Origin: an uncultured Bacteroidales bacterium
GTDB taxonomy: Bacteria; Bacteroidota; Bacteroidia; Bacteroidales; P3
NCBI GenBank assembly: GCA_900318175.1
Contig: ONJQ01000007.1
Coordinates: 62,001-126,000 of the forward strand
Direction of reading: 5' to 3'
DNA length: 64,000 nt
The position numbers and the translations under genes are program-made. The notes beneath the pieces are model-generated. The model was not told where the DNA came from. It made no database searches and worked only from the letters and a program-made list of their open reading frames with translations. Positions 11,035 to 28,145 of this stretch are shown here, piece after piece (the stretch's first letter is position 1; each line of letters opens with the position of its first letter).

Positions 11035-11086
11035 CAACTTTTTGCCGATACGAGAGAGTTTTTTTACTTATTTGAGAAAAAAGTCG

Positions 11087-11345: not shown

Positions 11346-11558
11346 ATTCGAAAAACAAGCCTCAAAAAAGTTTAATTACTGTCTTTTTGAGAGCATAATT
11401 TATTCATCCCCAATTTTAATTGTTGAGGGCCCTCTAATGGGGAGTGTTCCATCTACCAAAGTGCCACCACCCACACCCGGCTTATGACAAGTCGGTCTTT
11501 TGTTGTCTTCTTTCGACATAACTTCGACGTGCCACCGCATTGTCGAAATGAGGATTTT

Positions 11559-11709
11559 GCAGTCCAACCGACGTCAAAACCTCATTATTGAATAATAATC
11601 ATCATGATTCGATGATTGAATCTCTTTACGTGTTGGGATACTAAGCTGACTGTTGAATCTTTAGTCGATGTCCAAAATCGTCAAAACGCAGTCCAAACGA
11701 CGTCAAAAA
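11559..11709 (+). repeat. Direct repeat pair upstream of the Cys-rich Sel1 genes
   Basis: GCAGTCCAA-CGACGTCAAAA occurs at 11559-11580 and again at 11688-11709 with a single substitution, about 107 bases apart. Each is followed by a similar A/T-rich stretch containing ATTATG/ATTAT. The second copy ends about 43 bases before the start at 11753. This could be a regulator binding site or the trace of a small duplication. Confidence 0.5.
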
Positions 11710-11752
11710 CTTAATTATGAAATTAATAAACAAAAAAAATACAAAAATAATT

Positions 11753-12226: not shown

Positions 12227-12247
12227 TCAATAACAAATGAAAACAGT

Positions 12248-12730: not shown

Positions 12731-13023
12731 AACGTATTTTGACAAGGCTCTTTGGTGATGAACTGAGAGCAAAGAATGAGGTTGTGGTGGTGAATGATAA
12801 GCAGCCAAAGAAGAAACTTTATGATGACCCCGACCTGAATATCCTCGCCGAAAAATATGGTGAGTTAGTGGCCGGGAAGGAGATTACGATTGAACTTGGT
12901 GCAGCGGCGAAAATGTTAGGTCGGAAAAGAGTAAGATTGGATGCTTTCGCGGCACTGACTAAGAAACTGAAAAACGATTATGGAGTGGAGTTGAAGATTT
13001 ATTCTAGAAGGACAAAAGTATGA
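12715..13023 (+). CDS. Small basic hypothetical protein
   Basis: 102 residues, overlapping the preceding gene by 16 bases and the following nuclease gene by an ATGA, so translation is coupled across three genes. It opens with an amphipathic, basic N-terminal segment (MWKMLERILTRLFGD). The C-terminal half (ELGAAAKMLGRKRVRLDAF, then TKKLKNDYGVELKIYSRR) looks like a helical winged or HTH-type fold. No family was recognised. The overlap with a homing-type nuclease gene suggests either an accessory protein or chance insertion of the nuclease behind this operon. Confidence 0.55.
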   Translation: MWKMLERILTRLFGDELRAKNEVVVVNDKQPKKKLYDDPDLNILAEKYGELVAGKEITIELGAAAKMLGRKRVRLDAFAALTKKLKNDYGVELKIYSRRTKV

Positions 13024-13880
13024 GAGGTAAAAGAAACAAAATGACCCCTAATGATAAGGGAATGTATGAAGGTGTTGTATATCGCTACATAAACAAGACG
13101 GAGGGTGATGAGAACGGTTGGAGCTATGTGGGGAATACGACCGACGAGAAGCACCGCAGGTATGGCTGGAACAATCATGGGAACAAGAATTATGGCGGAA
13201 AGAAGATAAGCGATGCTAGGAAGAAGTTTGGACCCGAGAACTTTGATTATGAAGTGCTTGAAATTGTGAGCGCCGCGACGGTGGGTGAGTTGAAAGCTAC
13301 GCTGGACGAAAAAGAGGCAGTCTACATAAAGCAATTCAATTCTATTCAACAAGGTTACAACAGTTCGGAAGGCGGTACTGGTAATAAAGGAGGTATTACA
13401 GAGGAACACCGTAAGAACATCGGCAAGGCTTCTAAAGGTCGAAAGAAATCACAAGAGACCAGGGATAAGATAAGCGCCTCTTTGACTGGCCGAATAGTGA
13501 GCAAAGAGACTAGGGAGAAAATCTCGAAGGGCAACAAAGGCAAGAAACGTAGCGAGGAGGTTAAGAAAAAACAAAGTGCCATGAGAAAGGGAAAAGTCCC
13601 AAACCATCTTATCGCAGCAAACAAGGAGTGGCGTAAGAATGGCGGCACAACAAAGGGTATCAAGCACACAGAGATCGCAAAGGCTAAAATGAAAGCGGCA
13701 CAGCAAGCCAACGGAACCAAGGTCAAAGTAACCACATCCGATGGAACAGAGCAATATTATTCCACCATGCTCGACGCTGCCAAAGCACTAGGGGTTAATG
13801 TGGGTAGTATTGATTACTATGTCAACAAAAGCAATACACATAAGAGAAAAGACGGCTTTATATTTGAAAGCGCCGCATAA
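13020..13880 (+). CDS. GIY-YIG homing-type endonuclease with NUMOD DNA-binding repeats
   Basis: 286 residues. The GIY-YIG catalytic domain covers residues 15-115: VVY (19-21), YVG (36-38), Arg46/47, the catalytic Glu in DEKEAVYIKQF (Glu97 or 99) and the following Asn. Residues 125-215 hold NUMOD3-type basic repeats (KGRKKSQETRDKIS, then KGNKGKKRSEEVKKKQS, then KGIKHTEIAKAKM). The C-terminus is a NUMOD1-like helix-turn-helix (DAAKALGVNVGSIDYYV). This is the plan of phage-encoded free-standing homing endonucleases (Seg type), which cut DNA at long sites and spread by repair. Its start overlaps the previous stop. It marks this cluster as mobile DNA. Confidence 0.85.
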   Translation: MRGKRNKMTPNDKGMYEGVVYRYINKTEGDENGWSYVGNTTDEKHRRYGWNNHGNKNYGGKKISDARKKFGPENFDYEVLEIVSAATVGELKATLDEKEAVYIKQFNSIQQGYNSSEGGTGNKGGITEEHRKNIGKASKGRKKSQETRDKISASLTGRIVSKETREKISKGNKGKKRSEEVKKKQSAMRKGKVPNHLIAANKEWRKNGGTTKGIKHTEIAKAKMKAAQQANGTKVKVTTSDGTEQYYSTMLDAAKALGVNVGSIDYYVNKSNTHKRKDGFIFESAA

Positions 13881-13899
13881 CCATCTAAAACAAAACAAT

Positions 13900-14445
13900 A
13901 TGTTTACAAACAATATCAATAGCCTCACCCCAATATTTAGGGAGGCAATCGAGGAGTTCATTCCAGAGTGGCTGGAATCCCTGCTGCCTTATTATCAGGA
14001 GACCAAACAGAACGGGGATGATATTCTGGAACTATCGAATGTTATTTCATCCGAGGGAGAGCACTATGAAAAGAACGGCATATATTACTGTCGTCATATG
14101 AATGACGGAGGGCTGAGTATGCTCGCCTTTGATTCGTTGAAAGGATACAGGAAGGTAAACTGGAGGGAATGTCTAATAGAAAAGCATCCCGACTTTGACA
14201 GGGATCCAGACATAGCAATGGGCATATTCTGTGAGCTTACGAAAAACTCCCTCTATTTCGACCATTATGTATGGAGACTGTTCAACCGCAAACCGCCATA
14301 CGACGACCTGAATAATAGGGTTGACTCATACTTCAAACAACTGACAGGAGATAATAGCGTTGGATTCTCGTTGAGCAGTACTTCCATGCTCTATTTCAAT
14401 GAGAAGGCCAAGTGGTATATTGACCAGTACAGAGTATTTATGTAA
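13900..14445 (+). CDS. Hypothetical acidic protein
   Basis: 181 residues from the ATG at 13900, 19 bases after the nuclease stop. An upstream extension of the frame would overlap the nuclease and is not used. The protein is acidic and probably all-alpha at the start (LTPIFREAIEEFIPEWLESL), then has an ordered alpha/beta part with many aromatic residues (GIYYCRHMNDGGLSMLAF, HYVWRLFNRKPPYDDL). No motif or family was recognised. It is the last gene of the plus-strand cluster. Confidence 0.55.
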   Translation: MFTNNINSLTPIFREAIEEFIPEWLESLLPYYQETKQNGDDILELSNVISSEGEHYEKNGIYYCRHMNDGGLSMLAFDSLKGYRKVNWRECLIEKHPDFDRDPDIAMGIFCELTKNSLYFDHYVWRLFNRKPPYDDLNNRVDSYFKQLTGDNSVGFSLSSTSMLYFNEKAKWYIDQYRVFM

Positions 14446-14458
14446 TGAAAGGGCGGCA

Positions 14459-14845
14459 TCAGATTATTCTGGTGCTGCTTTTTTCTTTTTCTTGGGATAA
14501 CATACGGCAAAACTTCTTGAAACCATCACAGTGTTTATAGAGTAAGCCGGTACGATAGTTTTGGACATTTAGCATACGTTCAATCTCATTTGCTGCTGCC
14601 ATAATTCGCTCCACACTGACTTGCTCGCTAATGTATGACACGGTTTCCGACTTGTCAATATATCCAGCCAAGTATCCTTCGGACGGATTGTGTATTCCCA
14701 ATCGCTTACATACTATCCAAGACACGCTTTCCAGTCCATCAACAACTACATCATGAACCTCGAGTCCGCACTCGGTGACTTTTGTTTCTACGAAAACAAG
14801 CCTCGCGCTCTTTCCAGTTTCGAAGTCATAACGTCCAAGAATCAC
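14459..14845 (-). pseudogene. Remnant of an ArdC/ImmA-IrrE-like zincin, C-terminal part
   Basis: The only start is a GTG at 14845 directly after an in-frame stop. The translation carries the C-terminal landmarks of ArdC/ImmA-type metalloprotease-like proteins of mobile elements: ESVSWIVCKRLGIHNPSEGYLAGYI, where the first part is the usual E-S-V-x-x-x-V-C segment, and then the helix MAAANEIERML. The HExxH zinc site, expected 30-60 residues before this, is absent and no neighbouring frame supplies it. Family identification is from memory of the motif and is moderate. An intact short gene is the alternative. Confidence 0.4.
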
Positions 14846-15067
14846 TCACTTTTCTATGCCTTAGCCACATTGACGGCTCCATATGTCAAATGCCTCTCCC
14901 TAGGCGGGTCTTCCTACTTTCCCCTGCTTTCGAGAAAGACTGCACATTTCTGCAATTTTCATATCCAGAACTCCCGCAAGTATAGTGAAAACAAGGGATG
15001 TATCTTTCAATGGGACGAGTGGATTATTCTAGCGGAAGGATATCAAACAGGTACTTGTGCAGACTAA

Positions 15068-15226
15068 ATGCAGTTAGAGGGAAGATATGTCATAAGAGAT
15101 GATATAAAAACAATCTTCATGTACAGTTGGCGTGAACTTGCTAAAGGGAATCATTGTAATAGAATCAAGAATGTCAAATTTGAAGATTTCTTGGACTATT
15201 TTGAATTGAAAGTGGAATTAGTGTAA
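15068..15226 (+). CDS. Small hypothetical protein (52 residues)
   Basis: ATG at 15068 directly follows a TAA. The peptide begins MQLEGRYVIRDDIKTIFMYS and ends with an acidic aromatic stretch (FEDFLDYFELKVELV), and has a normal protein-like composition. It sits just before the hairpin at 15234-15260, which would end its transcript. It may be the tail of a larger decayed gene because the frame upstream is broken. No family was recognised. Confidence 0.4.
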   Translation: MQLEGRYVIRDDIKTIFMYSWRELAKGNHCNRIKNVKFEDFLDYFELKVELV

Positions 15227-15233
15227 TTCCGAG

Positions 15234-15260
15234 GAGAGGCCGTCTTTTGGACGACCTCTC
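15234..15260. terminator. Bidirectional hairpin between convergent genes
   Basis: GAGAGG-C-CGTC (15234-15244) pairs with GACG-A-CCTCTC (15250-15260) around TTTTG, with one mismatch. It lies 7 bases after the 52-codon frame and 3 bases after the stop of the minus-strand LRR gene, so it can serve both. Confidence 0.65.
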
Positions 15261-15263
15261 TTG

Positions 15264-16235
15264 TTATCTCCACATCCTTTTTTTAAATTCCTGATAGTCT
15301 TCTTCGATTTTTTCTCTGTATTTATCCCCCTGTTTGTTCAACATCTTGATATCATAGTCAGACATATATTTCGAATAACAATCAGGCAGGTAAATGCATC
15401 CAACACCAAATGAGCCATCATCAACATTAATTAATGTTTCTGGTTTGTTTATCTTATTTAGATGATAGCACTGACCAAATGCTCCGTTTTTTATAGTTGT
15501 CGTAAATGGAGATAGTGCCACTTCTTCTAAATCCAAACAACCAGAAAAAGCCATCATAGGAATAGACACAACCCTATCTGGTAAAGATATTCTCTTTAAC
15601 CCACAATAAGCGAATGCTGAAATATCTATTTCCCTAAGACCTTTAGGTAATTCGATAGCTTTTAAGGATTGACAATAGATAAAAGCACTTATCCCAATTT
15701 TCACCAGCGATTCTGGAAGGAGAACCTGCTCTAGTTTTCTGCACTCGCGGAATGTGAAGCGAGGTAGTTCGGTTATCCCTTCAGGAAACTTGATGTTTTT
15801 CAAACCCGTATATGCAAAAACGCTCTCACCAAGATGCGTGAGCAATGATCCATAGGGAATTTCGACTGTGGTTAACTCTCCGCATTCTTCGAAAGCCCCT
15901 GTTCCTATGGATTCAATGGTTATTGGAAGTACTACTTTTTTGAGTGCTGGGCTACCTTTAAAGGCATAGTCATCAATGGCGACCACCTTGTAAGCATCTG
16001 CATATTCGTCGTCGGATTGCTTGACAGCATTTGGGATTGTAACGGTTCCTTCATAGAAACCATCTCTTGGGGCGGTTACGGCTACCGTACCATAATTCGA
16101 AGCCTCATTGGCATCCTTAATAACCCTGTATGTGATGCCACTATAGCTAAATACACTCTGTGCATGAGTTTGGCTTGGATACAGTGATGCCGTAAGTGTC
16201 ATTAGGCATACAAAAATTAAATTTTTTCTTTTCAT
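15264..16235 (-). CDS. BspA-type leucine-rich repeat exported protein
   Basis: 323 residues, with a signal peptide (about 26 residues, cut after THAQ). A short N-terminal domain (FSYSGITYRVIKDANEASN) is followed from about residue 80 by BspA-type repeats of about 23 residues (pattern AFxxCxxLxxIxLPxxLxxIxxxAF), for example RFTFRECRKLEQVLLPESL and AFSGCLDLEEVALSPF. The C-terminal 50 residues are charged and helical. BspA-type LRRs bind proteins or surfaces outside the cell. It is the last gene of the CHAT/CHASE2 operon and is a shorter paralogue of the 20.2-22.4 kb protein, sharing its N-terminal domain. Confidence 0.85.
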   Translation of the reverse strand: MKRKNLIFVCLMTLTASLYPSQTHAQSVFSYSGITYRVIKDANEASNYGTVAVTAPRDGFYEGTVTIPNAVKQSDDEYADAYKVVAIDDYAFKGSPALKKVVLPITIESIGTGAFEECGELTTVEIPYGSLLTHLGESVFAYTGLKNIKFPEGITELPRFTFRECRKLEQVLLPESLVKIGISAFIYCQSLKAIELPKGLREIDISAFAYCGLKRISLPDRVVSIPMMAFSGCLDLEEVALSPFTTTIKNGAFGQCYHLNKINKPETLINVDDGSFGVGCIYLPDCYSKYMSDYDIKMLNKQGDKYREKIEEDYQEFKKRMWR

Positions 16236-16241
16236 AATGTA

Positions 16242-16694
16242 TTAAAATTTTGATTGTTTATTGATTGAATCCGCTATGGAGTCCGACGGAAACAGTGTTT
16301 GCATAACAAGTGTATCCCCTTCGCGATATGAAGCGGCTGCACTTTGCATGACATTTTTATCTCGCGGACTATCGTTTTCAGACATCTTCTTCAAAACGTA
16401 TTGAAAATAAGAATCCGATAATATCTTTCTATTTTTGTTTGCTGCAACGAGATCCTTGAGTTGCCCAGAAACAGGAGAGGACAAGGTAATCATTTCTTTG
16501 GCACTTTCATCAAGAAGAATAATCTTGGAATTCTTAGAAATGGACATGTGACAATTCCATTTGATTAGCATTCCTCTCTGAATTTGCTGCTCATTAGCAG
16601 TCACCGTTCCAACAACGGAGTATACCTTGTATTGTTGTGCATGACAAACCACGCAAAAGAATAGTGCGGCCCCAAAAAAGAACAATTGTTTCAT
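16242..16694 (-). CDS. Exported FecR-like small protein
   Basis: 150 residues with a signal peptide (MKQLFFFGAALFFCVVCHAQ). The mature part starts YKVYSVVGTVTANEQQIQRG and continues as a short beta-rich segment with SKNSKIILLDESAKEMITL. This resembles the FecR-type beta domain (a V-x-G-x-V opening, a glycine-containing turn, then an S-x-I-x-L-x-D strand). The remaining 70 residues are helical. The start overlaps the stop of the CHASE2 gene by four bases (16691-16694), so the two are translationally coupled. It is probably a periplasmic partner of the CHASE2 or CHAT protein. Confidence 0.6.
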   Translation of the reverse strand: MKQLFFFGAALFFCVVCHAQQYKVYSVVGTVTANEQQIQRGMLIKWNCHMSISKNSKIILLDESAKEMITLSSPVSGQLKDLVAANKNRKILSDSYFQYVLKKMSENDSPRDKNVMQSAAASYREGDTLVMQTLFPSDSIADSINKQSKF

Positions 16695-17887
16695 AAATTA
16701 CCTTCTATCATTAATGAATTGGAAAAGAATTGTTTATTATCATACTTTGAATAAAAGCCTTTGATGAGTGCTCTGTAAATATCTCTTGCTTCACAAGTGA
16801 GAACAAGCGACGCAAGTATGATACCTCCGCTCATCAGCAAACTTCCTTTAATGAACAAAATGTAAAACGCCCAGCAAGACAATATTTCAAAAATAAAAAG
16901 GAACACAATGGATACGATGTTTGCCTCTCTTATAAATGTCTGAAATACCGAGTTGGGATGTGCTTTGGATATTTGATAAAAGATGTCAACAGCAACCTCA
17001 AGTAGGTAACAAAGCAAGAATGCAATAATCCAGCATATTATATCCGGAACGTGACGTATTTGTTGATGTTCCAACACGGTTAGCAGTGAATATGCTTGTA
17101 TTTTAGCCCCTGACATTTTCCCAAGTGGAGTATTGTGCATGTCTCGTTCCTCATTCATCGTTCCAATAATAACAACACTTCCTGCTAGGACATCTCGGTT
17201 TTCCTCAATCTGTTCATGGGGAATTACCCTAAAATCCACATCGCGGTAGTTAATAAGCAAGTCTTCACCATAATTGGTATCGTTGTACACATCGGTCATT
17301 TCTGCTATCTTGACAGGGAAGGAGGTTTGTTTTTGACCTTTATACAAACGGTGTGTGCTTAATCTTCTGATATTACTTCCCATCATATCGTCAGTAACAT
17401 TGGTGTAGGCTTCGGTAATTCCACATTTCTCGGCACAATATGAACGCACAATACCTTGGAAAGAATTGTTGACGCCACTATAGTCTGTAAGTTTGTTGGC
17501 GAAGACTGTAGGAGACCTCAGGTGTAATAGCGTTTGCTCTAACAGTTCATTCCCAATACTGTCATCTTTTTCTCCTTCAAAAATCAAGTCTACCCCTATG
17601 CACATGGGATTACATTCATCTACCTCCTGTATCAACTCTGCGATATCACCGCGATCATAGAGTTCCGTCATATCCACTATAGTGATAATATTACATTCTT
17701 CAGGTTCGTCGGTGTGTTCTATCTCAAAAAACATATCTGTAATAGAAAAATTCTCCAACGCCTGTGATACAGGATTGAGAAAGCCAATATTTACAACCAT
17801 TACACTGAGGATGGCGAGTAGTGCAAATCCAAATAAAGTGATTATCACATGATCCCGATGGAAAAAATATCGAATAAACTTTTTCAT
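16691..17887 (-). CDS. CHASE2-domain membrane protein
   Basis: 398 residues. One N-terminal membrane helix (residues 12-35) is followed by a large periplasmic domain with CHASE2 features: residues 66-72 NIITIVD, then ECNPMCIGVDLIFEG, then VLAGSVVIIGTMNEERDMHNTPLGKMSGAKIQAYSL. The last part contains the P-G/HGVxIQA-like segment that ends CHASE2 domains. Three membrane helices close the protein (about 281-300, 323-345, 349-367). CHASE2 is an extracytoplasmic sensor domain usually joined to kinases, cyclases or CHAT proteases. Here no cytoplasmic output domain is fused, so signalling probably goes to the neighbouring CHAT protein. Confidence 0.75.
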   Translation of the reverse strand: MKKFIRYFFHRDHVIITLFGFALLAILSVMVVNIGFLNPVSQALENFSITDMFFEIEHTDEPEECNIITIVDMTELYDRGDIAELIQEVDECNPMCIGVDLIFEGEKDDSIGNELLEQTLLHLRSPTVFANKLTDYSGVNNSFQGIVRSYCAEKCGITEAYTNVTDDMMGSNIRRLSTHRLYKGQKQTSFPVKIAEMTDVYNDTNYGEDLLINYRDVDFRVIPHEQIEENRDVLAGSVVIIGTMNEERDMHNTPLGKMSGAKIQAYSLLTVLEHQQIRHVPDIICWIIAFLLCYLLEVAVDIFYQISKAHPNSVFQTFIREANIVSIVFLFIFEILSCWAFYILFIKGSLLMSGGIILASLVLTCEARDIYRALIKGFYSKYDNKQFFSNSLMIEGNL

Positions 17888-17898
17888 ATCGCTATGTT

Positions 17899-20196
17899 TT
17901 ATTGGTCTAACGCATCCAAAAGCACAAATGCCGCCCAGAATTCAGGTCGGTCGTAGATTCCATTGTTGTAGGACCTCAAGGCTAACTGTGCATTTGCCAA
18001 TGCTTCACGTTTTGTTTGACCGGAGTATAAGTTTTTGTACATTTCTGTCATCAGAATTCTAGTTGCATCGTCATTCACTTTCCATAAACTCATTACAAGG
18101 CTGTTTGCCCCTGATAGCTTAAAACTTCTTTGAAGTCCAAAAACGCCCTCACTTGCATCAATATCACCCAAACCGCTCTGACAGGCGGACAATACAATCA
18201 AATCCACTTCATTCAAATTGAGCCCGGCAATTTCATAAGCGTATAATATGCCATCATTGCCTGATGTTTTCCCTTCTTTCTTACGGAGGGTGTTGTTTGC
18301 TCCTGCAAGAATAAGGCCACTTCGGGTCAATCGTTTGTCGTCTTTTGCATAATGGGCATTCCCCTTGATGACAGAATAATTCATATCGCGAAAATCACGG
18401 TCCATTCTAAAATATTGGTCAGAGCCTTTTTTTGTGTAGTAGAAGCCATGTGTGGCGACATGGATAATTCCTATATTTGTTCCAGAAAGGCGCTTGAAAG
18501 CAGATTCTTTTGCGTTGTCGCCAGTATAAAGGTCTGCTGCAATATTGGAATCAACTAATAATTTCGAGATGGCATCAACCTCTTTTTTCGTTCCCGGCAA
18601 ATACGAGAACCCGCTTGCAACAGAACCTCCACGTAATCCATCCAACTGAAGTGAGTCGAAAGAAACCGTCCGGATGCTGTCATGGGATTCTTGTTGAAAA
18701 GACAATGTATCATTCGAAGGAAGCAAATCAAAGTTTGCACCGCCAAAGAGCGCCGCTTTGCGTAACGTGCGTACCCTATGAATGACAAGTTCTTTGGTTG
18801 ATGAGAGTCTGAAGGTGTTGTATTTATTACAGAAGTTTATGCCCATATCATCAGGTAGATATTCTATACCTGTGTTAAAGAAAGCTCCTGTCGGTGAGAA
18901 ATATACATTTTCCACCCCATCCAACTCCTTTTCCATAGCACCCCAAACATTATCGTACAACTCATTACTTGTGTATATTCCACTAGATTGCATGGTCAAA
19001 GTCTTAGTGACGTCATCAATTTTTGTCAAATGCGGTGCAGCATACCCTTTCTTGATGGACAATGCGGCATATTTCACAGTACCATTATTCTGCGGGATGG
19101 TAATAAATTCAATGGCAATATCATGGTCGCCTATTCGTTCTTGAACATCACGCCAGCCGATACGGAAATCAGTTCTATAGTCATATTTATGTTCTTTTTG
19201 GTGCCTCAAAAGAATATCCGACAAGGTCTCCATCTCAACATTTTCTTCCAGCGAACGATTTTTCTTTGACTTCAGTTGCTTATACTGATCAAACAACTTA
19301 ATTAAAGCCTTATCGTTGCTGGTCAATATAATCTCTGACGATTTATTTTCTGCCGCCAGCAATACCCCTTTGCTAAACAGTGCAGCATCATAGGCGTAGG
19401 AAGCAAGCGGACTTGAGTAGTGTTCGTAAACAAAAGTCGGAAGGTATAAGTAGAAGAAACCACCCTTCTTTCCCCAATAGACAGCTCTGTCTGCGGCTTT
19501 CGACAATGAAAATTGTCTCAGCAGAGGCTCTCTGGCGTTCTCATAACAATCAGGCAGTATCTGCTCCAACTCTGGCCATTTCTTGTTAAGATAATAGTAG
19601 TAGGCCAATGCAATACGGTATTCAGGAATGTTTTCCTGATCATGGGAAATGCATTCTTTCTCACACTCAATAGCCCGTTGTATATTGGCCATACCATAGT
19701 AAGATACAGCCATGTAATGTAATAGCAGTGATTGCATGCCGGGGATGGAATGGATTGTTTCCGTCCACTTAAGAGTTTCTTGCAGCAGGTCTATTGACCT
19801 CTGATATTGCCCTATGCTTGAATAGTACACGCCAATCTCATATTGTGCGCGTACATAACGTGCCGAGCCTGGACGGATATGGGACTTGATGGCTAACAGC
19901 TTAGCCTCTACCTGTTCCACCATATATAGGTCTTGCCGTTCATGGTAAATTCTCCCAAGCAATGCCAGAGACCGGACATGACCCAAGCCACCTTCGGCAT
20001 CATTTTGTTTCAGTATGTCAATGCTATTTTCCAATACATGCTCAGCCTCGTTGTATTTCTTTTCTTCATACAACACACAAGCCTTGTCATACAATTGTGA
20101 CCACCTTCTCTCTAAGCGGTCCGATGACAGTGGCTGTGCAAAACAGGCAAACACGGGAGCAATCAGCATCGCCACATATATCACGATTCGTCTCAT
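17899..20196 (-). CDS. TPR-CHAT caspase-like protease, exported
   Basis: 765 residues from the ATG at 20196, which overlaps the preceding stop as ATGA; the frame upstream would overlap the LRR gene. MRRIVIYVAMLIAPVFACFA is a signal peptide. Residues 25-300 are tetratricopeptide repeats (YEEKKYNEAEHVLENSI, YSSIGQYQRSIDLLQETL). The C-terminal 250 residues are a CHAT domain with the full caspase-like dyad: His583 in IHVATHGFYY and Cys672 in LSACQSGLGD, followed by GVFGLQRSFKLSGANSLVMSL. CHAT proteases cleave partner proteins after activation. An exported CHAT protein beside a CHASE2 sensor and LRR surface proteins suggests an extracytoplasmic signalling or self-destruction system. Confidence 0.88.
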   Translation of the reverse strand: MRRIVIYVAMLIAPVFACFAQPLSSDRLERRWSQLYDKACVLYEEKKYNEAEHVLENSIDILKQNDAEGGLGHVRSLALLGRIYHERQDLYMVEQVEAKLLAIKSHIRPGSARYVRAQYEIGVYYSSIGQYQRSIDLLQETLKWTETIHSIPGMQSLLLHYMAVSYYGMANIQRAIECEKECISHDQENIPEYRIALAYYYYLNKKWPELEQILPDCYENAREPLLRQFSLSKAADRAVYWGKKGGFFYLYLPTFVYEHYSSPLASYAYDAALFSKGVLLAAENKSSEIILTSNDKALIKLFDQYKQLKSKKNRSLEENVEMETLSDILLRHQKEHKYDYRTDFRIGWRDVQERIGDHDIAIEFITIPQNNGTVKYAALSIKKGYAAPHLTKIDDVTKTLTMQSSGIYTSNELYDNVWGAMEKELDGVENVYFSPTGAFFNTGIEYLPDDMGINFCNKYNTFRLSSTKELVIHRVRTLRKAALFGGANFDLLPSNDTLSFQQESHDSIRTVSFDSLQLDGLRGGSVASGFSYLPGTKKEVDAISKLLVDSNIAADLYTGDNAKESAFKRLSGTNIGIIHVATHGFYYTKKGSDQYFRMDRDFRDMNYSVIKGNAHYAKDDKRLTRSGLILAGANNTLRKKEGKTSGNDGILYAYEIAGLNLNEVDLIVLSACQSGLGDIDASEGVFGLQRSFKLSGANSLVMSLWKVNDDATRILMTEMYKNLYSGQTKREALANAQLALRSYNNGIYDRPEFWAAFVLLDALDQ

Positions 20197-22439
20197 GGAA
20201 ATACCAGATTTTTCTTGTATGCTTTCAGTGCCGCACATTCAGCATACTTTGCATCTTTAAGATGAATCTTGAGTTGGCTATTAGAACCAAATATACCACC
20301 GAAGGAACCCTTAGTGGTCCATTCGCACGGATTTCCATCAATCTCAACATCTATTAGTCCCTTACACGCGAAAGCAGCTCCACCGATTTCTTCCACCCCG
20401 CATGGTATTTTCAGCGATTCGATTCCGCAGCGGTAGAAGGCACCCGCACCGATTACCTTTAGCCCTTTGGAAAGAGTAACGGAAGTAAGTCCCGAGCAAC
20501 CATCGAAAACCTCCTCGCCCCAAGTGGTAACATTTGAGGGAATTGTGACTGAAGTCAATGATGTGCACCAACGGAATGCCCATCGTTCAATGGTTGTGAC
20601 ACTAGCGGGCAAGACAATAGTTTTTAAGTTTCTGCATCCTAGGAATGCCCTATCCCCAATACTAGTGACTCCTTGGTTGAGGATGACAGACGTGAGGCTT
20701 GTACAATCGCTGAATGCAAGGAAGCCTATATGAGTGACACTGCCAGGAATGACAATTGAGGTTAATCCTTTGCAATCGTGAAAAGCACGTCCTTCGATTC
20801 TCTTTAGCCCTTGAGGAAACACTATTTTCTTGATTTCACTGTTCCAGAACAAGTCTTTAGGAATCGTCTCCATAAAATCTGGGAGTTTTATTTCAGTAAT
20901 TCCTGTACCTTTGAAAGCCCCTTCCCCAATCCCAAAAGTACCTACACTGGCAGGGATGTCTATACTTGTAACTTTTTTGTGGTCCACAAAAGTACCGGCT
21001 GCTATACCTGCGACAATATATTTCTCTGGATAAGGTCCCCCTACGATCTCTATCACTTCTGGAATCTTTACACGCCCTGCACATTTCTGACTTAATTCTA
21101 TCGATCCAAAATCGCCTAATTGTGACCAATCTCTAATTTGTGACCATTCTACAAAAAAAGAACCGTTTGTTACTACCACTATGCCGTATTCTTCGTCTTT
21201 TATCGGGTAGGAGATAAGGTGATAAACCAAATCTTTTACTTTTATTAAATGCACATTTGCCCCAAACTCCACATCACCAGAGAAATAATCAACGGTGATT
21301 TTATTCTTTGTGTTTATGGCTTTTTCGAGTTTCGATACCACTCTGTCATACTCTTTACCCTCTGGAATACTCAAAGACACAACACAAGAGTCATCTATTC
21401 TAAATTTATTTTGTCGTTGTTCTTGTCTAGGATTACTTTCTACGGACTCTAACTTGGTCACGAAAGCCCATTGCGATACAGAGGTATTGGACGACACGAT
21501 GAGTGTATCCAGACGACAATGAGCAAATGCGTTATCCTCAATAGATGCAAGATTTTGAGGCAGAGTGACTCTGCGAAGCATCGATTTCGAAAAACACCCT
21601 TCTTTTATCTCTTTTATTGATGGAGGGATGACTATCTCAACAATGCCTGCCTTTTGGAATGCTTCAGGACCAATTTCCCGAATGCCGTCGGGAAGATTGA
21701 AGCTGCGCAGACGTCCGCAGGAAAAGAATGCCTTTCTTCCAATGCTCTTTAGTCCATTACCAACCTTTACTATCGCCAGTCTGACACAATAGTAAAATGC
21801 TTCATTCCCTATTGCCTTTAATGTATTTGGTAATTGTAAGGTCTCCAAACTGATACAAGCATGGAATGCCCCATTTCCAATGGACGTTAACCCCTCGTGG
21901 AAAACAACACTTTTGAGATTCACACAATTATAAAAAGCATTCTTTCCAATCACTTTAACCGTGGAGGGAATATCAATGGAATCAATTTTCGATTGCTCAA
22001 AAACACTTTCACCAATTAATTTTAGATTTCCCATCGGCAATTCTACTTGAACAACCGAAGATAAGAAAAAAGCGCTGTCGCCAATAGTCTCAATAGATGG
22101 TGGAAGTTTCACCGACTTGAGGTACTTCGTTTGGGCAAAAGCACTGTTATCAACACCTACAACCTTGTATTTGTCAGCATACTGGTCTTCAGCTTCCTTC
22201 ACCACATTGGGTATCACAATGTCACCCTCGTATTCGCCATACTCAATTTGACAAACAGAAACAGTACCTGTGGTCATTGTACCGTCTGGCTCTTGGATTA
22301 CACGATAATTGATACCATCTACTTCAAATGTACGCATTTGAGCATGAATGGTGTTTGTGCCCAAATACAATAAAAAGAGCATAAAGCAGAAGACAAATAT
22401 GCTTTTTTTCCTCATGAGTTTCTTTTTGTCATTAATCAT
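20193..22439 (-). CDS. Large BspA-type leucine-rich repeat exported protein
   Basis: 748 residues; an ATG eight codons later (22415) gives an equally good signal peptide ending THAQ-like at HAQ. Residues 35-90 repeat the N-terminal domain of the 15.3 kb paralogue (FEVDGINYRVIQEPDG). Two arrays of BspA-type repeats follow (about 90-320 and 470-720), for example AFYNCVNLKSVVFHEGLTSI. They are separated by a non-repeat insertion of about 130 residues that contains a second copy of the DGINYRVI-like domain start. LRR surfaces of this type bind proteins. It is coupled to the CHAT gene by an ATGA overlap, which suggests that it is the recognition part of the system. Confidence 0.85.
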   Translation of the reverse strand: MINDKKKLMRKKSIFVFCFMLFLLYLGTNTIHAQMRTFEVDGINYRVIQEPDGTMTTGTVSVCQIEYGEYEGDIVIPNVVKEAEDQYADKYKVVGVDNSAFAQTKYLKSVKLPPSIETIGDSAFFLSSVVQVELPMGNLKLIGESVFEQSKIDSIDIPSTVKVIGKNAFYNCVNLKSVVFHEGLTSIGNGAFHACISLETLQLPNTLKAIGNEAFYYCVRLAIVKVGNGLKSIGRKAFFSCGRLRSFNLPDGIREIGPEAFQKAGIVEIVIPPSIKEIKEGCFSKSMLRRVTLPQNLASIEDNAFAHCRLDTLIVSSNTSVSQWAFVTKLESVESNPRQEQRQNKFRIDDSCVVSLSIPEGKEYDRVVSKLEKAINTKNKITVDYFSGDVEFGANVHLIKVKDLVYHLISYPIKDEEYGIVVVTNGSFFVEWSQIRDWSQLGDFGSIELSQKCAGRVKIPEVIEIVGGPYPEKYIVAGIAAGTFVDHKKVTSIDIPASVGTFGIGEGAFKGTGITEIKLPDFMETIPKDLFWNSEIKKIVFPQGLKRIEGRAFHDCKGLTSIVIPGSVTHIGFLAFSDCTSLTSVILNQGVTSIGDRAFLGCRNLKTIVLPASVTTIERWAFRWCTSLTSVTIPSNVTTWGEEVFDGCSGLTSVTLSKGLKVIGAGAFYRCGIESLKIPCGVEEIGGAAFACKGLIDVEIDGNPCEWTTKGSFGGIFGSNSQLKIHLKDAKYAECAALKAYKKNLVFP

Positions 22440-22451
22440 GGATAATCAAAA

Positions 22452-22961
22452 CTATAATTCTTTTCCGCAGTTAGAGCAGAATCTGGCATTCCCGTTCACC
22501 TTGTTGCCACAATTTGTACAAAATGACGTACTTTGTTCCGAGGTGTCATAAGAGTAAGATGTCCTATTTTTTTCCATGATAACCTTTTCTGCTATTGCAA
22601 TGGCCTTGTCATCCAGCTGAGATTGCTGAACCATCCCCCATATCTGCGGAATTAGCACTGGCCAAAAGAAGAACATCGTGATAGCGGTAGGAATGGCTTG
22701 TTGACCGAAAATACCCACCCCAGCATTAATATGGATGGCATTGCCCTGCGGTGTCAGAGTGACCTTTAAGGCAGACTTCATGCCAAGTACTGCTTTAAAG
22801 ACATTGCCTTTGGCAAGAGAGATGTCGTACACCCCACCAGCATAGCTGTCGCTTTTGGCGGTGAATCCTTCCATCTGGAAATTTCTAACGATATGGTCTG
22901 CAATTTCAGGTATCAATGCAGGGTCACCGTTCAGAACCTTTGAAGTAGAAAATGTTGCCAT
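22452..22961 (-). CDS. Zinc-ribbon protein with a hydrophobic central segment
   Basis: 169 residues. The N-terminal 85 residues form an alpha/beta domain (ALIPEIADHIVRNFQMEGF, then VYDISLAKGNVFKAVLGM). Residues 95-115 are hydrophobic (AIPTAITMFFFWPVLIPQIW), compatible with one membrane span or hairpin. The C-terminus is a zinc ribbon, FCTNCGNKVNGNARFCSNCG. The same ribbon type ends the next upstream gene product, so the two probably work at the same place. No enzymatic motif is present. Confidence 0.65.
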   Translation of the reverse strand: MATFSTSKVLNGDPALIPEIADHIVRNFQMEGFTAKSDSYAGGVYDISLAKGNVFKAVLGMKSALKVTLTPQGNAIHINAGVGIFGQQAIPTAITMFFFWPVLIPQIWGMVQQSQLDDKAIAIAEKVIMEKNRTSYSYDTSEQSTSFCTNCGNKVNGNARFCSNCGKEL

Positions 22962-22974
22962 AGTGTATTGTTTG

Positions 22975-23874
22975 TTATTTTAACTTTGCTCCACAACTTC
23001 TACAAAAAGCCCAATCCTCACTGATGGCAGCACCACACATCGGACAGGTTTTACCGTCAGTCAGTTGTTGCATTTGTGATTGAAGTTTTAAATAATGGGC
23101 ACCTCCAGACCATCTTCTCACCTCGTATGCCCTCACTGGACCATACGGGTGGGTTAAATCCGTATTTGAAATGTATCTGACTACCTTCGATACCCCAGAG
23201 CCATGTTTCATTTTCTCATAGTCTGCTCCTTGGGTGGCCCATTCATCAAGATTCATATTCTTCAGTATGATAGGAGGAATGCCATCCAGTTTTGCCAATA
23301 CGCGAATCATCGTCTCGGGCGAAGACACGACACATGCCACACGGTCGGCCGACAATTCGGATGCTCTGCTCCACCCAAGCAATGCCTGCTTGATAGGAAT
23401 CATGGCTGCATTGCCAATGGAACCTAAGATTGAGTCCATCAACGAATCCCCCAAGTCAAAAATGGCGTTAGCAAGCATGGAGTAAAGGACATGGTGGCAG
23501 AGTATATGACCGCACTCGTGAGCCAACACTGCATCCAGTTCTTCTTCTTGGAAGCGGCGTATCAACCCAAGCGTCACCACAATGTATGTACGTGTATTGC
23601 CAGAAGTCCATGCGTTTGGTATGGGGCTCATCTGAAGGTACAACTCAGGGATAGGCATCTGCAATTTGCGACAGACAGCTATAAGTCTGCAATAAATCTC
23701 AGGCATCTGACGTTCGTTGATTCTCACGTTGGAGGAGATATTTCTGCTCCAATCCATTTCCTCATAGCCGTACTGCATCACCTTTTCCAACAAGGTGGGC
23801 AAAGCAGGGATGCTCTTTAGATTATTCAGTGCCGAGGCATCATCGGGGTGGATGAAATCTTGAATGTTTATCAT
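22975..23874 (-). CDS. M48-family metallopeptidase with C-terminal zinc ribbon
   Basis: 299 residues. The zinc-protease motif is HECGH (119-123) in LDAVLAHECGHILCHH, with the third ligand expected in SELSADRVACVV (about residues 172-183), where E-L-S-A-D-R is the usual M48 consensus. No transmembrane helices like those of HtpX are obvious, so it may be cytoplasmic. A C-terminal zinc ribbon (CPMCGAAISEDWAFCRSCGAK) is fused. M48 enzymes usually degrade misfolded or membrane proteins. It overlaps the upstream small gene by ATGA and precedes a second zinc-ribbon gene by 13 bases. Confidence 0.85.
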   Translation of the reverse strand: MINIQDFIHPDDASALNNLKSIPALPTLLEKVMQYGYEEMDWSRNISSNVRINERQMPEIYCRLIAVCRKLQMPIPELYLQMSPIPNAWTSGNTRTYIVVTLGLIRRFQEEELDAVLAHECGHILCHHVLYSMLANAIFDLGDSLMDSILGSIGNAAMIPIKQALLGWSRASELSADRVACVVSSPETMIRVLAKLDGIPPIILKNMNLDEWATQGADYEKMKHGSGVSKVVRYISNTDLTHPYGPVRAYEVRRWSGGAHYLKLQSQMQQLTDGKTCPMCGAAISEDWAFCRSCGAKLK

Positions 23875-24089
23875 GCTAATCCTTTATAATTAAAATCGCC
23901 AGCACTACAGCACAACCGTCTGATATCGCACTGGTAAATTCTCATGTACGCGTCAGCAACAGCACCAATCCCTTGTGTAAAAGGCGTAGGCGCATGGTAT
24001 GGCAACGTAACCGTCACCATCATCGCGGGAGTAATAACCTGCCCGTTAGAACTCCTTGTACGTTTTGGCCAAACTTGAAAGACTCTCAT
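23871..24089 (-). CDS. Small protein leading the M48/CHAT operon
   Basis: 72 residues. The stop overlaps the M48 start (ATGA, 23871-23874) and the ATG at 24089 is the first in the transcript that begins near 24377. The sequence has a mixed composition with TLPYHAPTPFTQGIGAVADA and two adjacent cysteines near the end (RRLCCSAGDFNYKG). No family was recognised. Coupling to the peptidase gene supports it; a short regulatory peptide or peptidase substrate is possible. Confidence 0.5.
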   Translation of the reverse strand: MRVFQVWPKRTRSSNGQVITPAMMVTVTLPYHAPTPFTQGIGAVADAYMRIYQCDIRRLCCSAGDFNYKGLA

Positions 24090-24099
24090 TCATTATAGA

Positions 24100-24383
24100 T
24101 GCCTTGAGTCCTCAGTAGGGCGTTAAATAAATATAGGAAAAGCATAGAACTCGTGTTGTCTGTTTTACGAAGTTGAGGCATAGCCAAACGCCATTCCAGA
24201 ATAAAACTGAGAAGAACTTCATCCTATGCTTAACGATACGCAGAGGCGGTAAGCCAATACATACTCGAAAAAGCAAAAGGCATCGGTATCTTGTCCTCTG
24301 GATATTATTTGGCGAAATTTCAACTTCGGACAGTACAAATGCTTTCCGCATTGCTCGACATTTCTCTTGTCGATTTTCGGGTG
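24100..24383 (-). ncRNA. Structured RNA/leader candidate, copy B
   Basis: Read on the minus strand downstream of the TATATTTG element. It shares ordered sequence blocks with 11095-11345 (see there), including the strongest block GGCGTTTGGC-ATGCCT and the 3' block ending ACACGA before a T-rich tract. Possible outer stem GCATAG/CTATGC and inner stem GAAGTT/AACTTC enclose the central part. A 107-codon frame crosses it but lacks protein-like features. It forms the leader of the M48/CHAT operon. Confidence 0.45.
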
Positions 24384-24391
24384 CAAATATA
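24384..24391 (-). promoter_or_regulatory. -7 element TATATTTG for the M48/CHAT operon
   Basis: Matches TAnnTTTG on the minus strand about 295 bases before the first gene of the operon. The -33 part is not clear. 24392-24590 otherwise holds no gene. Confidence 0.5.
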
Positions 24392-24594
24392 CGCATTTTT
24401 TTTGATACATGATGCCTTTTAGGATAAAGTTCCATTCAATTATAAGGAAACCAACAATTTGAAAAATGGGCAAATTGTAATTGTATCTAATCAGGTTGCT
24501 GATTCTCTGTGGTTATAATGGATTATTTTGATGGACGATTGATAAGTAGTCCTTCTTGAAAAGCATATGATGGTGGATCACAAAAGAAAAAAAA

Positions 24595-24616
24595 GGAGTG
24601 CCGACTATGGCACTCC
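24595..24616 (-). terminator. Strong intrinsic terminator
   Basis: GGAGTGCC (24595-24602) and GGCACTCC (24609-24616) with a six-base loop, followed on the minus strand by a run of T with one C. It ends the small operon 24630-25708. Confidence 0.85.
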
Positions 24617-24629
24617 TCAGTCTTTGCAA

Positions 24630-24722
24630 TCACTTTTTGATGCGTTTCTTGATGTTCTTTACCTTCAGCTTTAATATTTCAAATATCACTCTATAGACAA
24701 AATAAGGTTCATTCAGTATCAT
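24630..24722 (-). CDS. 30-residue basic peptide coupled to the YubB-like gene
   Basis: The ATG at 24722 overlaps the stop of the preceding gene (ATGA) and the frame closes 14 bases before the terminator. The peptide starts MILNEPYFVYRVIFEILKLK and ends VKNIKKRIKK: an amphipathic first half and a strongly basic tail. Its position inside the transcript and the overlap argue for translation. No function can be given. Confidence 0.5.
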   Translation of the reverse strand: MILNEPYFVYRVIFEILKLKVKNIKKRIKK

Positions 24723-25309
24723 GGCTCATCCTCCTCTATAACAGTGAATTTATTGAAGCTGTAGAAAGCATCCTCGTTCACTACCAGCTCCTTCTCCTCC
24801 AGTTCATCAAGGGCGGATGTGATATCCTCTTCGGTTTGGACATCCTTACCTGTCAGACCCTTCACATACTCTGCTGCCGATTCAAGCGTGTTAAAGTATT
24901 CAATGCCGTCAGTGAAATCGAGAATGTACCGCTCAGGGAAATAGTCACCTTCCTTATCGTTAGTCACATAGTAGATATTCCCTGGTTCTTCTGCACTATA
25001 GACAATGTGGATATTGGGAAACTTGGACTTGATAAACTTCCTCCATTCCCCCAATTCACTCCATGCACTCGTGACGGAAATGCAAAGTGTGGTTCCAGAA
25101 AACTCATAGCTGTCAACCTCTCCCCGGCAATAGACCTCATTCCAGTCTCCTCCCAGAAGCGAGACCAGACACCCGCACCATAGCTTACCAAATCCATTTT
25201 CTACTAGCGGTTTGTCAAGGGAATTAAGATAGTCGAGCTTTTCCTTCAACTCCACCAGCTCACCCTTGTTCCCATAGCATCTGTAGTCCGTACAGCACCA
25301 GTTAGGCAT
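24719..25309 (-). CDS. YubB-like ferredoxin-fold protein (DUF1281 type)
   Basis: 196 residues. The ATG at 25309 is preceded by a near-perfect Shine-Dalgarno (AAGGAGGTGATT), which is rare in this phylum and decides the start. The N-terminus MPNWCCTDYRCYGNKGEL is the hallmark of the YubB/DUF1281 proteins found on plasmids and phages; later aromatic residues (CISVTSAWSE) fit their ferredoxin-like fold. The C-terminal 50 residues (EDITSALDELEEKELV) are acidic. Function of the family is unknown. Confidence 0.7.
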   Translation of the reverse strand: MPNWCCTDYRCYGNKGELVELKEKLDYLNSLDKPLVENGFGKLWCGCLVSLLGGDWNEVYCRGEVDSYEFSGTTLCISVTSAWSELGEWRKFIKSKFPNIHIVYSAEEPGNIYYVTNDKEGDYFPERYILDFTDGIEYFNTLESAAEYVKGLTGKDVQTEEDITSALDELEEKELVVNEDAFYSFNKFTVIEEDEP

Positions 25310-25529
25310 AATCACCTCCTTTCATGTTGTAGGTTCTTTCGCTGAGGGTTTCGAGGGTCATCCATTCACAGTCTTTCAATCGGACCTGGTACTTCTCCTC
25401 AATGTGTTCCCTGATAAACTCCTCAAAGTCATCATAGGTTTCGCTGAGTCTCTTCTCTTCTTCGGTGAGCTTAATCTTTACAATCTCGCCCACACAATAA
25501 TTAAGCAGGATTAAATAGTTCGGTTCCAT
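25302..25529 (-). CDS. Small acidic hypothetical protein
   Basis: 75 residues (MEPNYLILLNYCVGEIVKIK, then EEEKRLSETYDDFEEFI). It overlaps the YubB-like start by eight bases. It is helical and acidic with no motif I recognise. The tail contains the Shine-Dalgarno of the next gene (codons for KGG). It is part of the 25708-to-24630 operon of small element genes. Confidence 0.6.
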   Translation of the reverse strand: MEPNYLILLNYCVGEIVKIKLTEEEKRLSETYDDFEEFIREHIEEKYQVRLKDCEWMTLETLSERTYNMKGGDYA

Positions 25530-25540
25530 TTTGTTGTTGT

Positions 25541-25708
25541 TTAATTGATTCTGTAACTTCTAATAAATGTGATTGTATTCGCCGTGGGATGCAGACGGGT
25601 TATTCTATGGCGGGCGGTAAGCTGGTTTATGATGTTCAGATCCACCGCCACCTTCATACCGTCTGGACTATCCGGCGTTTTGACAAGGAATTCATATCGG
25701 ATAGTCAT
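25541..25708 (-). CDS. Small hypothetical protein (55 residues)
   Basis: ATG at 25708 gives MTIRYEFLVKTPDSPDGMKV followed by AVDLNIINQLTARHRITRL and ends near 25541, 12 bases before the next start. Composition and the alternation of hydrophobic and charged residues look like a real beta/alpha protein. It is the first gene of the operon and lies directly beside the inverted repeats at 25765-25891. No family was recognised. Confidence 0.5.
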   Translation of the reverse strand: MTIRYEFLVKTPDSPDGMKVAVDLNIINQLTARHRITRLHPTANTITFIRSYRIN

Positions 25709-25764
25709 TGTTGTTTGGTTTTGTGTTGTTCTTTCTTGGGCATAAAAGGGTCAAAAAATGGGCG

Positions 25765-25891
25765 GACAATACACAGTGACATATTTTTTTATTATTTGGG
25801 CATTTTTTAGTAGTCTCTTATAATATATTATAGTTAAAATAGAGTGAATATGCCCACATGGATAATAGTTAATGCCTTAGTGTGTATTGTC
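25765..25891. repeat. Nested inverted repeats flanking an A/T-rich segment, possible invertible promoter or recombination site
   Basis: GACAATACACA (25765-25775) is repeated inverted as TGTGTATTGTC (25881-25891). Inside, TGGGCAT and ATGCCCA form a second inverted pair around a TATAATATATTATA core. The segment lies between a serine-recombinase gene and a small operon pointing away from it, the usual position of a recombinase target or an invertible promoter. Confidence 0.45.
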
Positions 25892-25932
25892 TGTAGGAGA
25901 GCATGTAATGGTCTCCTAGGGGTCATAGGTAT

Positions 25933-26616
25933 TCATTCTCTTAGGTGGTAGCGTTTGATAAGTCTTTGTACCGTAACAGGCTTGAACTTGCATCCTTTCG
26001 AGGTCTGGAATCCTTCTTCATTCAGTGTGTCAGCCATCTTTTGAAGTGATAGACCTTGACCGACCAGAGACCGTAGTAAAGCGACAGCCCTCTTGTTGTT
26101 GGGATTCTCATGGGCTTTCCTACGGTTGGTCTCGTTGCTGGCCTCGATAGCTTCATGGTGTTTGTCCATCAGGTGTTCGGGATTGCCAAGAGTAAAACCC
26201 CGACTCTTCTTTGCATTTAGTGCCTGTCTTGTCCTCGTGGCTGTGAGTTCTGCTTCATATTGGGCTATGGCGGAAACAATGTGTATCATCATCTTGTTGG
26301 CCTGTGGGAAGTCGCAGAAGACAATTTCCACGTCAGATTCGAGAAGTTGGGAAGTGAAGGCGACGTTTCTAGAGAGTCTGTCCATCTTTGCCACAATAAG
26401 GTTCGCTCCGGTCTTTCTACATAGTTCCAGGGCTTCTTTCAATTTAGGGCGATCGTTATGTCTTCCGCTCTCCACCTCGACATACTCGGCAATGGGTTTT
26501 CTGTCTCGTAGGTGCTTTTCGATTATCTCCCTCTGTGCCTCCAATCCAAGTCCTGAATACCCTTGTTTCTGTGTGCTGACCCGAAGGTAAGCGACGTATT
26601 GGTTTTTGTTAGGCAT
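25933..26616 (-). CDS. Small serine recombinase (resolvase/invertase family)
   Basis: 227 residues. The catalytic Ser14 is in YLRVSTQKQ, followed by SGLGLEAQREIIEKHL. The conserved arginines lie in LIVAKMDRLSRNVAFTSQL. The E-helix (IVSAIAQYEAELTATRTRQAL) leads to a C-terminal helix-turn-helix (GLSLQKMADTLNEEGF, then KPVTVQRLIKRY). The size matches resolvases and DNA invertases, which cut and rejoin two sites within one molecule. Beside it lie inverted repeats (25765-25891) that could be its target. It has no partner gene and its own transcript. Confidence 0.9.
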   Translation of the reverse strand: MPNKNQYVAYLRVSTQKQGYSGLGLEAQREIIEKHLRDRKPIAEYVEVESGRHNDRPKLKEALELCRKTGANLIVAKMDRLSRNVAFTSQLLESDVEIVFCDFPQANKMMIHIVSAIAQYEAELTATRTRQALNAKKSRGFTLGNPEHLMDKHHEAIEASNETNRRKAHENPNNKRAVALLRSLVGQGLSLQKMADTLNEEGFQTSKGCKFKPVTVQRLIKRYHLRE

Positions 26617-26654
26617 GGTGATTAAGGTGTTTGGTTGTTTGTCTGAAATAGAAA

Positions 26655-26705
26655 GAGGGCTATGATACTCTCGATTATTGGTTTTCGATTTCTCATAGCC
26701 CCCTC
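26655..26705 (-). terminator. Long-loop hairpin after the 26.7 kb gene (H1)
   Basis: GAGGGCTATGA (26655-26665) pairs with TCATAGCC-CCCTC (26693-26705), with two extra C, around a 27-base loop. On the minus strand it is followed by TTTCTATTT. One of four similar hairpins in this segment. Confidence 0.55.
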
Positions 26706-26718
26706 ATTGTCGGTGGTG

Positions 26719-27204: not shown

Positions 27205-27222
27205 AGTATAGAGTTTTTAGGG

Positions 27223-28143: not shown

Positions 28144-28145
28144 GG

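Follow-up and report, generated by a model that had tools for sequence, protein, structure and literature searches.

A recurrent CHAT–CHASE2–FecR-like gene module in Bacteroidales and its predicted role in proteolysis at the cell envelope

What is known about related systems, and how does this locus compare?

In most discussions CHASE2 figures as the sensing part of a kinase or cyclase, and the caspase-like proteases of bacteria figure as enzymes of death or defence that act in the cytoplasm. Here we consider a locus in which members of both families are close neighbours, found in an uncultured Bacteroidales bacterium (GenBank assembly GCA_900318175.1, contig ONJQ01000007.1); the stretch that we analysed, which we call the window, is 64,000 nucleotides long (positions 62,001 to 126,000 of the forward strand), and the genes in question lie on its minus strand. 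Three of them, encoding a CHAT protease with an export signal, a CHASE2 membrane protein and a small FecR-like protein, form a core that recurs in other genomes, and its predicted function would be a variant of FecR–CHASE2 signalling that acts outside the cytoplasm rather than within it.

Several described systems offer points of comparison. The FecR–CHASE2 histidine kinase operon of Burkholderia, BiofilmReg, is described as a sensor pair with an inward output, in which the gene of a FecR protein predicted to lie outside the cytoplasm adjoins that of a CHASE2 membrane protein whose sensory domain is extracellular (PMC5192318). The window shares this arrangement, but the Burkholderia CHASE2 belongs, as described there, to a histidine kinase working with a response regulator, whereas ours has no output domain and shares its operon with a protease bearing an export signal. 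In the LapD–LapG–LapA system, a receptor in the inner membrane sequesters a cysteine protease of the periplasm whose target is an envelope protein (PMC6890996), so the logic of an inner-membrane receptor controlling a periplasmic protease already exists, and the window fits it at the level of predicted architecture. By the same account, LapD is a c-di-GMP (cyclic di-GMP) receptor and LapG a transglutaminase-like protease, whereas Pfam finds CHASE2 and CHAT in the window, and we claim no sequence relation. A clan CD protease is also joined to CHASE2 in the cyanobacterial metacaspase–CHASE2 fusion of Trichodesmium, where the protease is predicted to stay in the cytoplasm (PMC3501461, PMC2853523); in the window, by contrast, the protease is a protein of its own, carries an export signal and is accompanied by a FecR-like partner. 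Finally, Csx29 of Craspase shares the TPR-CHAT fold, but is described as being activated by Cas7-11 and target RNA (PMC10028731), whereas our CHAT carries an export signal; a Pfam search confined to the seven operon proteins found no CRISPR effector (Cas7-11) among them. A full-text literature search returned no paper in which CHASE2, CHAT and FecR occur together, nor one combining 'CHAT domain' with CHASE2, although subscription papers lay mostly outside its coverage, so that novelty is unproven.

Which genes make up the locus?

An initial annotation of this DNA had described a set of seven minus-strand genes, and all seven are indeed present, running from 23874 down to 15264, with Pfam supporting every name except the FecR-like one. 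They include two BspA-type leucine-rich repeat (LRR) proteins, which we call LRR2 and LRR1 in order of transcription:

22975..23874, minus strand: M48 peptidase with a C-terminal zinc ribbon (both found by Pfam, M48 at 71 bits); lies upstream of the module and probably does not belong to it
22452..22961, minus strand: zinc-ribbon protein (Pfam zinc ribbon); travels with the M48 gene and is probably outside the module
20193..22439, minus strand: LRR2, BspA-type, 748 amino acids (Pfam LRR_5, 384 bits); signal-peptide-like start; likely recognition partner of CHAT
17899..20196, minus strand: TPR-CHAT protease, 765 amino acids (Pfam TPR_12, and CHAT at 174 bits); signal-peptide-like start; His583/Cys672
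16691..17887, minus strand: CHASE2 membrane protein, 398 amino acids (Pfam CHASE2, 68 bits); four hydrophobic stretches and no cytoplasmic output domain
16242..16694, minus strand: divergent FecR-like protein, 150 amino acids; signal-peptide-like start; profile–profile match to FecR-type proteins
15264..16235, minus strand: LRR1, second BspA-type LRR protein (LRR_5, 180 bits); signal-peptide-like start; possible accessory

Open reading frames here and elsewhere were called by a simple longest-frame rule, and several of the loci compared below are cut by contig ends. The gaps between the seven genes, in the order listed, are 13, 12, -4, 11, -4 and 6 nucleotides when the CHAT start is taken at 20196, and both -4 overlaps (LRR2/CHAT and CHASE2/FecR-like) are ATGA couplings. 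It is because of the overlap with LRR2 that 20196 is the likely start, rather than the longer frame beginning at 20238. Direct reading of the sequences shows N-terminal signal-peptide-like stretches ending A-Q in CHAT, the FecR-like protein, LRR1 and LRR2, while hydropathy gives no hydrophobic stretch above threshold in the M48 and zinc-ribbon proteins; signal peptides were judged throughout by a crude hydropathy rule. No known RNA family reached its gathering score in window positions 11000-30000, and promoter and terminator scans were no richer than shuffled sequence (27 against a mean of 26.9, and 8 against a mean of 7.6).

What kind of protease is CHAT?

The CHAT domain scores 174 bits against a Pfam cut-off of 24. 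The initial annotation had credited the protein with a complete His/Cys dyad and a signal peptide, and both hold up: the dyad is His583/Cys672, numbered from 20196 as in that annotation, both residues are invariant among 45 aligned CHATs, and the start is signal-peptide-like. The predicted structure (pLDDT 85.6, pTM 0.86) consists of a helical solenoid with the CHAT domain after it, and the nearest folds in the Protein Data Bank (PDB), according to Foldseek, are Csx29, the TPR-CHAT protein of Craspase (8eey chain B, E 2e-13, TMq 0.51), and then DdvA and separase. When 31 proteins were checked (including two LRR-CHAT fusions unlinked to CHASE2, and one locus twice), 29 passed the crude signal rule, the exceptions being L053 and L162, and 27 showed the dyad motif; in L192, L068 and L107 a dyad can be seen by eye, and L164 is among the 45 with invariant columns. 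Two or three CHAT genes stand in one same-strand run at L149, L159, L164, L168, L169 and L184.

The fold comparison also raises the thought that CHAT might not be a free envelope protease at all, but a scaffold or a partner in signalling, passing its message across the membrane to the cytoplasm in the manner of an anti-sigma factor. DdvA is itself a transmembrane anti-sigma factor (8rot, E 2.4e-10, TMq 0.28), Csx29 is described as controlling a sigma factor through Csx30 (PMC10028731), and the second CHAT gene of this genome (L059) follows two genes that resemble, by eye only, a sigma factor and an anti-sigma factor. However, no sigma or anti-sigma gene is seen among the seven, the CHASE2 protein has a tail of only ~30 residues, and the dyad is invariant in all 45 aligned CHATs; we regard this explanation as unlikely.

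What are CHASE2 and its FecR-like partner?

The CHASE2 protein of the window has hydrophobic stretches at residues 11-41, 277-306, 314-353 and 340-367, followed by that short tail, and at 398 residues it holds no cytoplasmic kinase or cyclase output. CHASE2 is rare here: counting the source genome each time, it turned up at the level of the order in 7/198 genomes, at that of the family in 8/190 and at that of the class (Bacteroidia, to judge from the named relatives) in 41/395. A first scan of genome contigs with CHASE2 by itself gave no relative. The comparison set consists of 57 other loci from the class that carry CHASE2, L047-L058 and L064-L108, which are not independent of one another (12 come from family f209, three from genome G462 and two from G940) and of which two, L105 and L108, have CHASE2 matches below the Pfam cut-off. 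Across this set, CHASE2 proteins are 343-550 residues long (median 400), and in 56 of the 57 the tail beyond the final hydrophobic stretch is no longer than 62 residues; in ten loci outside the class (L109-L118) they are 712-755 residues long.

The 150-residue partner matched no Pfam family above cut-off. The FecR domain PF04773 is absent from this gene, from seven relatives and from the CHASE2 contigs of 13 genomes of the same class, and it does match FecR-type genes of G651 and G564 that lie beside large CHASE2 proteins. Profile–profile comparison of our family with six FecR-type genes that lie beside the large CHASE2 proteins outside the class gave probabilities of 94% and 90%, with four unrelated control profiles at 0.3% or below. 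This match, in a family that PF04773 does not recognise, means that the partner's identity as a divergent FecR homologue is supported but not proven. In its structural model, confidence is limited to the part between about residues 21 and 106 (over residues 21-100 the block means of pLDDT are 88-94), and a fold search with it found no PDB match at E 0.001 or better, the first, weak match being a cell-surface anchoring domain (5ix9, E 0.33, TMt 0.69).

The FecR-like profile was seeded from the first 12 of the 57 external loci, so that only the other 45 test its linkage to CHASE2, and in 27 of these a FecR-like gene stands in the same-strand run as CHASE2. With the profile rebuilt partly from the same loci, such a gene lies within two genes of CHASE2 in 42 of the 57, and a strong N-terminal hydrophobic stretch is found in 42 of 44 of the FecR-like genes near CHASE2. 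In the f177 loci L072, L073, L078 and L089, a likely FecR-like gene can be seen by eye, divergent and just upstream of CHASE2. Some neighbours of CHASE2 elude the profile: at L150, L156, L162 and L164, a protein of about 200 residues (a 290-residue open reading frame in L164) with a signal-peptide-like stretch sits beside CHASE2 and resembles, by eye, the FecR-like N-terminal domain. At L048 (11232-12428) and L164 (14205-15701), proteins of 398-498 residues with a signal-peptide-like start stand after CHAT and just before CHASE2; they match no Pfam family over cut-off, look alike by eye and are a possible further partner.

Do these genes belong together?

The initial annotation had made its proposal depend on the same gene order occurring in other genomes, and it does: LRR-CHAT-CHASE2-FecR-like is found in G286, and CHAT-CHASE2-FecR-like without an LRR gene in G233, L184 and L212. 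On this point it is supported: CHAT and CHASE2 recur together, with the FecR-like gene alongside them. Among the 57 further CHASE2 loci, 19 have a gene for CHAT or for the caspase family C14 on the same strand within three genes, a figure that becomes 12 of 50 when the seven loci that seeded the C14 profile are left aside. Counted per gene, CHAT or C14 accounts for 23 of 235 same-strand genes within three genes of CHASE2 and for 2 of 86 opposite-strand ones; at a distance of four or five genes the figures are 1 of 89 (same strand) and 4 of 101 (opposite strand), or 5 of 190 together, and past the fifth gene none of 181. The scan of neighbours covered just these two families, and other proteases turned up among the few proteins submitted to Pfam: at two loci lacking both families, L106 has a papain-like C1 protease with DUF4384, and L057 a subtilase (S8) cut by the contig end. 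All three C14 proteins that were submitted were confirmed, one with Sel1 repeats and the others with weak WG or DUF4384 matches.

Searching in reverse from CHAT, we took the best 80 of 566 relatives, which represent 78 distinct named loci, mostly from rumen and gut Bacteroidales assemblies. In 11 of these 78, CHASE2 stands in the same-strand run of the CHAT gene (L144, L150, L156, L162, L164, L184, L191, L203, L207, L212 and L214); L184 and L214 have an identical gene string, and L191 has that of L107 (G221). At L145 and L200, CHASE2 is nearby but on the opposite strand to CHAT. A protein combining LRR with an M64 peptidase is encoded at L145 (1772-4528), near the divergent CHAT and CHASE2-FecR-like genes.

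Is this association simply the inheritance of one block of genes? Apparently it is not. In a tree of 102 CHAT domains, 19 of them labelled as linked (same strand, within three genes), the label changes 11 times, six of these changes being forced by supported branches, and shuffled labels need a mean of 17.7 changes, with 0 of 500 shuffles as low as 11. In a CHASE2 tree of 69 rows, members from the window's genus fall in separate places: those with CHAT are the window with G286, G280 with G233, and G221 (which also has C14), and those with C14 are G238, G211 and G223. Both trees are quick ones with long branches and are used here for a single claim, which is that the linkage of CHASE2 to proteases, as judged from the sequences, is not one inherited block.

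An alternative that has to be weighed at this point is that CHASE2 and the FecR-like protein are a sensor pair for envelope stress or biofilm formation, and that the proteases are merely loosely associated neighbours. The FecR-like link is the commoner of the two (42/57 vs 19/57, with the FecR-like profile built partly from the same loci), and the FecR–CHASE2 histidine kinase operon of Burkholderia is described as acting in biofilm control (PMC5192318). Yet proteases are enriched near CHASE2 over more distant genes, four protease families occur there, and in L050, L051, L052 and L056 the protease gene sits between CHASE2 and the FecR-like gene itself, and we consider it improbable that the proteases are bystanders.

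Which neighbours are part of the module?

For the LRR proteins, the picture is mixed. In G286, whose CHASE2 is 75% identical to that of the window, an LRR relative of 899 residues lies directly upstream of CHAT in the window's own gene order; in L180 and L192, a BspA-type LRR, a middle region and CHAT are fused into single proteins of 1308 and 1328 residues with a signal-peptide-like start; and in L203 an LRR gene lies two genes before CHAT-CHASE2-FecR-like, with one gene between. LRR matches are rare around CHAT (4 of 865 genes in the 78 CHAT loci), and three of the four are in the CHAT gene or one gene from it. The initial annotation had the LRR proteins recognise something outside the cell; what the comparison supports is a tie of LRR to CHAT by gene order and by fusion, with LRR rarely seen near CHASE2. 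Taken together, order and fusions make LRR2 a plausible recognition partner of CHAT in the variant found in the window, and not a constant part of the module. LRR1 has no counterpart after the FecR-like gene of G286 and no support from other loci, and is a possible accessory.

The M48 peptidase and its zinc-ribbon neighbour are another matter. Close relatives of M48 occur in 4 of 118 other genomes of the genus searched, namely G293 (95%), G271, G273 and G278 (72%), with weaker matches in G280, G293 and G233, and in each of the first four the zinc-ribbon gene comes next after M48, with different genes behind it. No CHAT, CHASE2, FecR-like or LRR gene was found in the 12.6-16.5 kb read around the pair in these genomes, and the 20 kb read in G286 held no relative of M48, of the zinc-ribbon pair or of LRR1. 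The DNA similarity between the window and these genomes does not reach past the zinc-ribbon gene, stopping inside it or at its end; upstream it takes in a repeat of about 350 nucleotides, listed here as a further feature:

24100..24475, strand not assigned: repeated stretch upstream of M48, with DNA identity of 81-91% in four M48-pair genomes

On these grounds, M48 and the zinc-ribbon protein were rejected as parts of the system, and they probably lie outside the module. The idea that M48 may remove products has no support, since the two proteins travel separately and lack signal peptides, and the description of the whole set as one operon has to be split: seven adjacent minus-strand genes with ATGA couplings it certainly is, but it is not one evolutionary unit, given the gene order of G286 and the M48 pair elsewhere without CHAT. 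On the comparative sequence evidence, CHAT-CHASE2-FecR-like is a recurrent module, the M48 and zinc-ribbon genes are a separate pair and the operon is composite. The pair (22452-23874 in the window, and L225-L228) is conserved in five genomes of the genus, with following genes that differ between the window, G293 and the other three, and may be a cassette with a role of its own. The 5' end of the range first assigned to the locus, at about 24100-24475, looks like a repeated stretch common within the genus, and not like a gene. In each of the four genomes this stretch is more similar to the window's copy than the M48 and zinc-ribbon block is (by a small margin in G293), and it has 12 matches, mostly short, in the source genome.

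The initial annotation had put forward contact-dependent signalling, defence and regulated lysis as hypothetical functions. Might the locus serve defence or conflict between bacteria, with LRR2 recognising an invader at the surface and CHAT triggering lysis or death? The surroundings could be taken to hint at it, since the window also holds type I restriction-modification genes, matches to BnzA and BnzB, a recombinase and an ERF gene, and in G293 the M48 and zinc-ribbon pair precedes a DUF4062 protein with NB-ARC-like and TPR matches. Against this, six of the seven proteins gave no PADLOC match at E 0.1, the sole match being a weak one of CHAT to Cas8a (15 bits, E 0.0029), exported parts are unable to sense a phage inside the cell, and some of the linked loci lie, by eye, among seemingly ordinary genes. 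With no more than that one weak match, a named defence system was rejected, and defence or conflict between bacteria seems to us an unlikely function.

As for the wider window, the restriction-modification genes (methyltransferase, specificity and restriction subunits, with two further genes between) occupy 38595-48230, and two adjacent genes at 56206-58124 match the PADLOC models BnzA (50 bits) and BnzB (214 bits), which we take to be the Bunzi defence system. A serine recombinase and an ERF-family protein are encoded next to the operon at 25933-28763, which suggests the border of a mobile element.

How might the module work?

We think there is about an even chance that LRR2, CHAT, CHASE2 and the FecR-like protein form a signal-controlled protease complex of the cell envelope. 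The CHASE2 sensor domain would be expected in the periplasm, where it and the FecR-like partner might bind the protease and hold it in check at the inner membrane. CHAT would then be released or activated when CHASE2 senses a ligand or a change in the envelope, or when the LRR protein binds a target, and would cleave an envelope protein; candidate substrates are the FecR-like protein itself (its C-terminal 40 residues have a pLDDT under 50), an LRR protein or a partner in the outer membrane. In place of a cytoplasmic kinase or cyclase signal, the complex would produce cleavage of proteins in the periplasm or at the cell surface. The initial annotation had CHASE2 transmitting; transmission inward is unlikely because the protein has no cytoplasmic output domain.

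A number of observations weigh against such a complex, or at least against its generality. As many as 38 of the 57 CHASE2 loci have neither CHAT nor C14 encoded on the CHASE2 strand at a distance of up to three genes, so that CHASE2 and the FecR-like protein can work without such a protease or with a distant one, and the linkage count shrinks, as noted above, without the seed loci. An LRR match lies near CHASE2 in just one of the 57 (G286). One CHASE2-family protein, that of L104 (7534-8778, 414 residues), has no membrane stretch at all by the hydropathy rule; its start looks lipoprotein-like by eye. Nor is export a special feature of the module: in a control set of 20 CHAT loci of the order, hand-picked one per genome and mostly from the top of the score list, CHAT passes the crude signal rule in 16, so that exported CHATs are common in the order without CHASE2. 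In the same set, CHASE2 lies within three genes in 0 of 20 and a FecR-like gene in 2 of 20, which indicates that the link to CHASE2 is not ordinary.

A broader and more tentative idea, which we hold to be possible but somewhat short of an even bet, is that CHASE2-FecR-like in this class is a general outward-acting receptor. One core would then drive interchangeable exported proteases (CHAT, caspase, papain and subtilase) combined with interchangeable recognition repeats (LRR, TPR and Sel1, with WG and WD40 seen weakly or by eye), making up a caspase-like proteolytic relay of the envelope. The CHAT form of the linkage is seen in several gut and rumen Bacteroidales assemblies, which makes these ideas testable. 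If they are true, the two families would share a role through the pairing of exported proteases with a CHASE2 that lacks an output, and CHASE2 would be predicted to signal through control of protein cleavage at the membrane's outer face.

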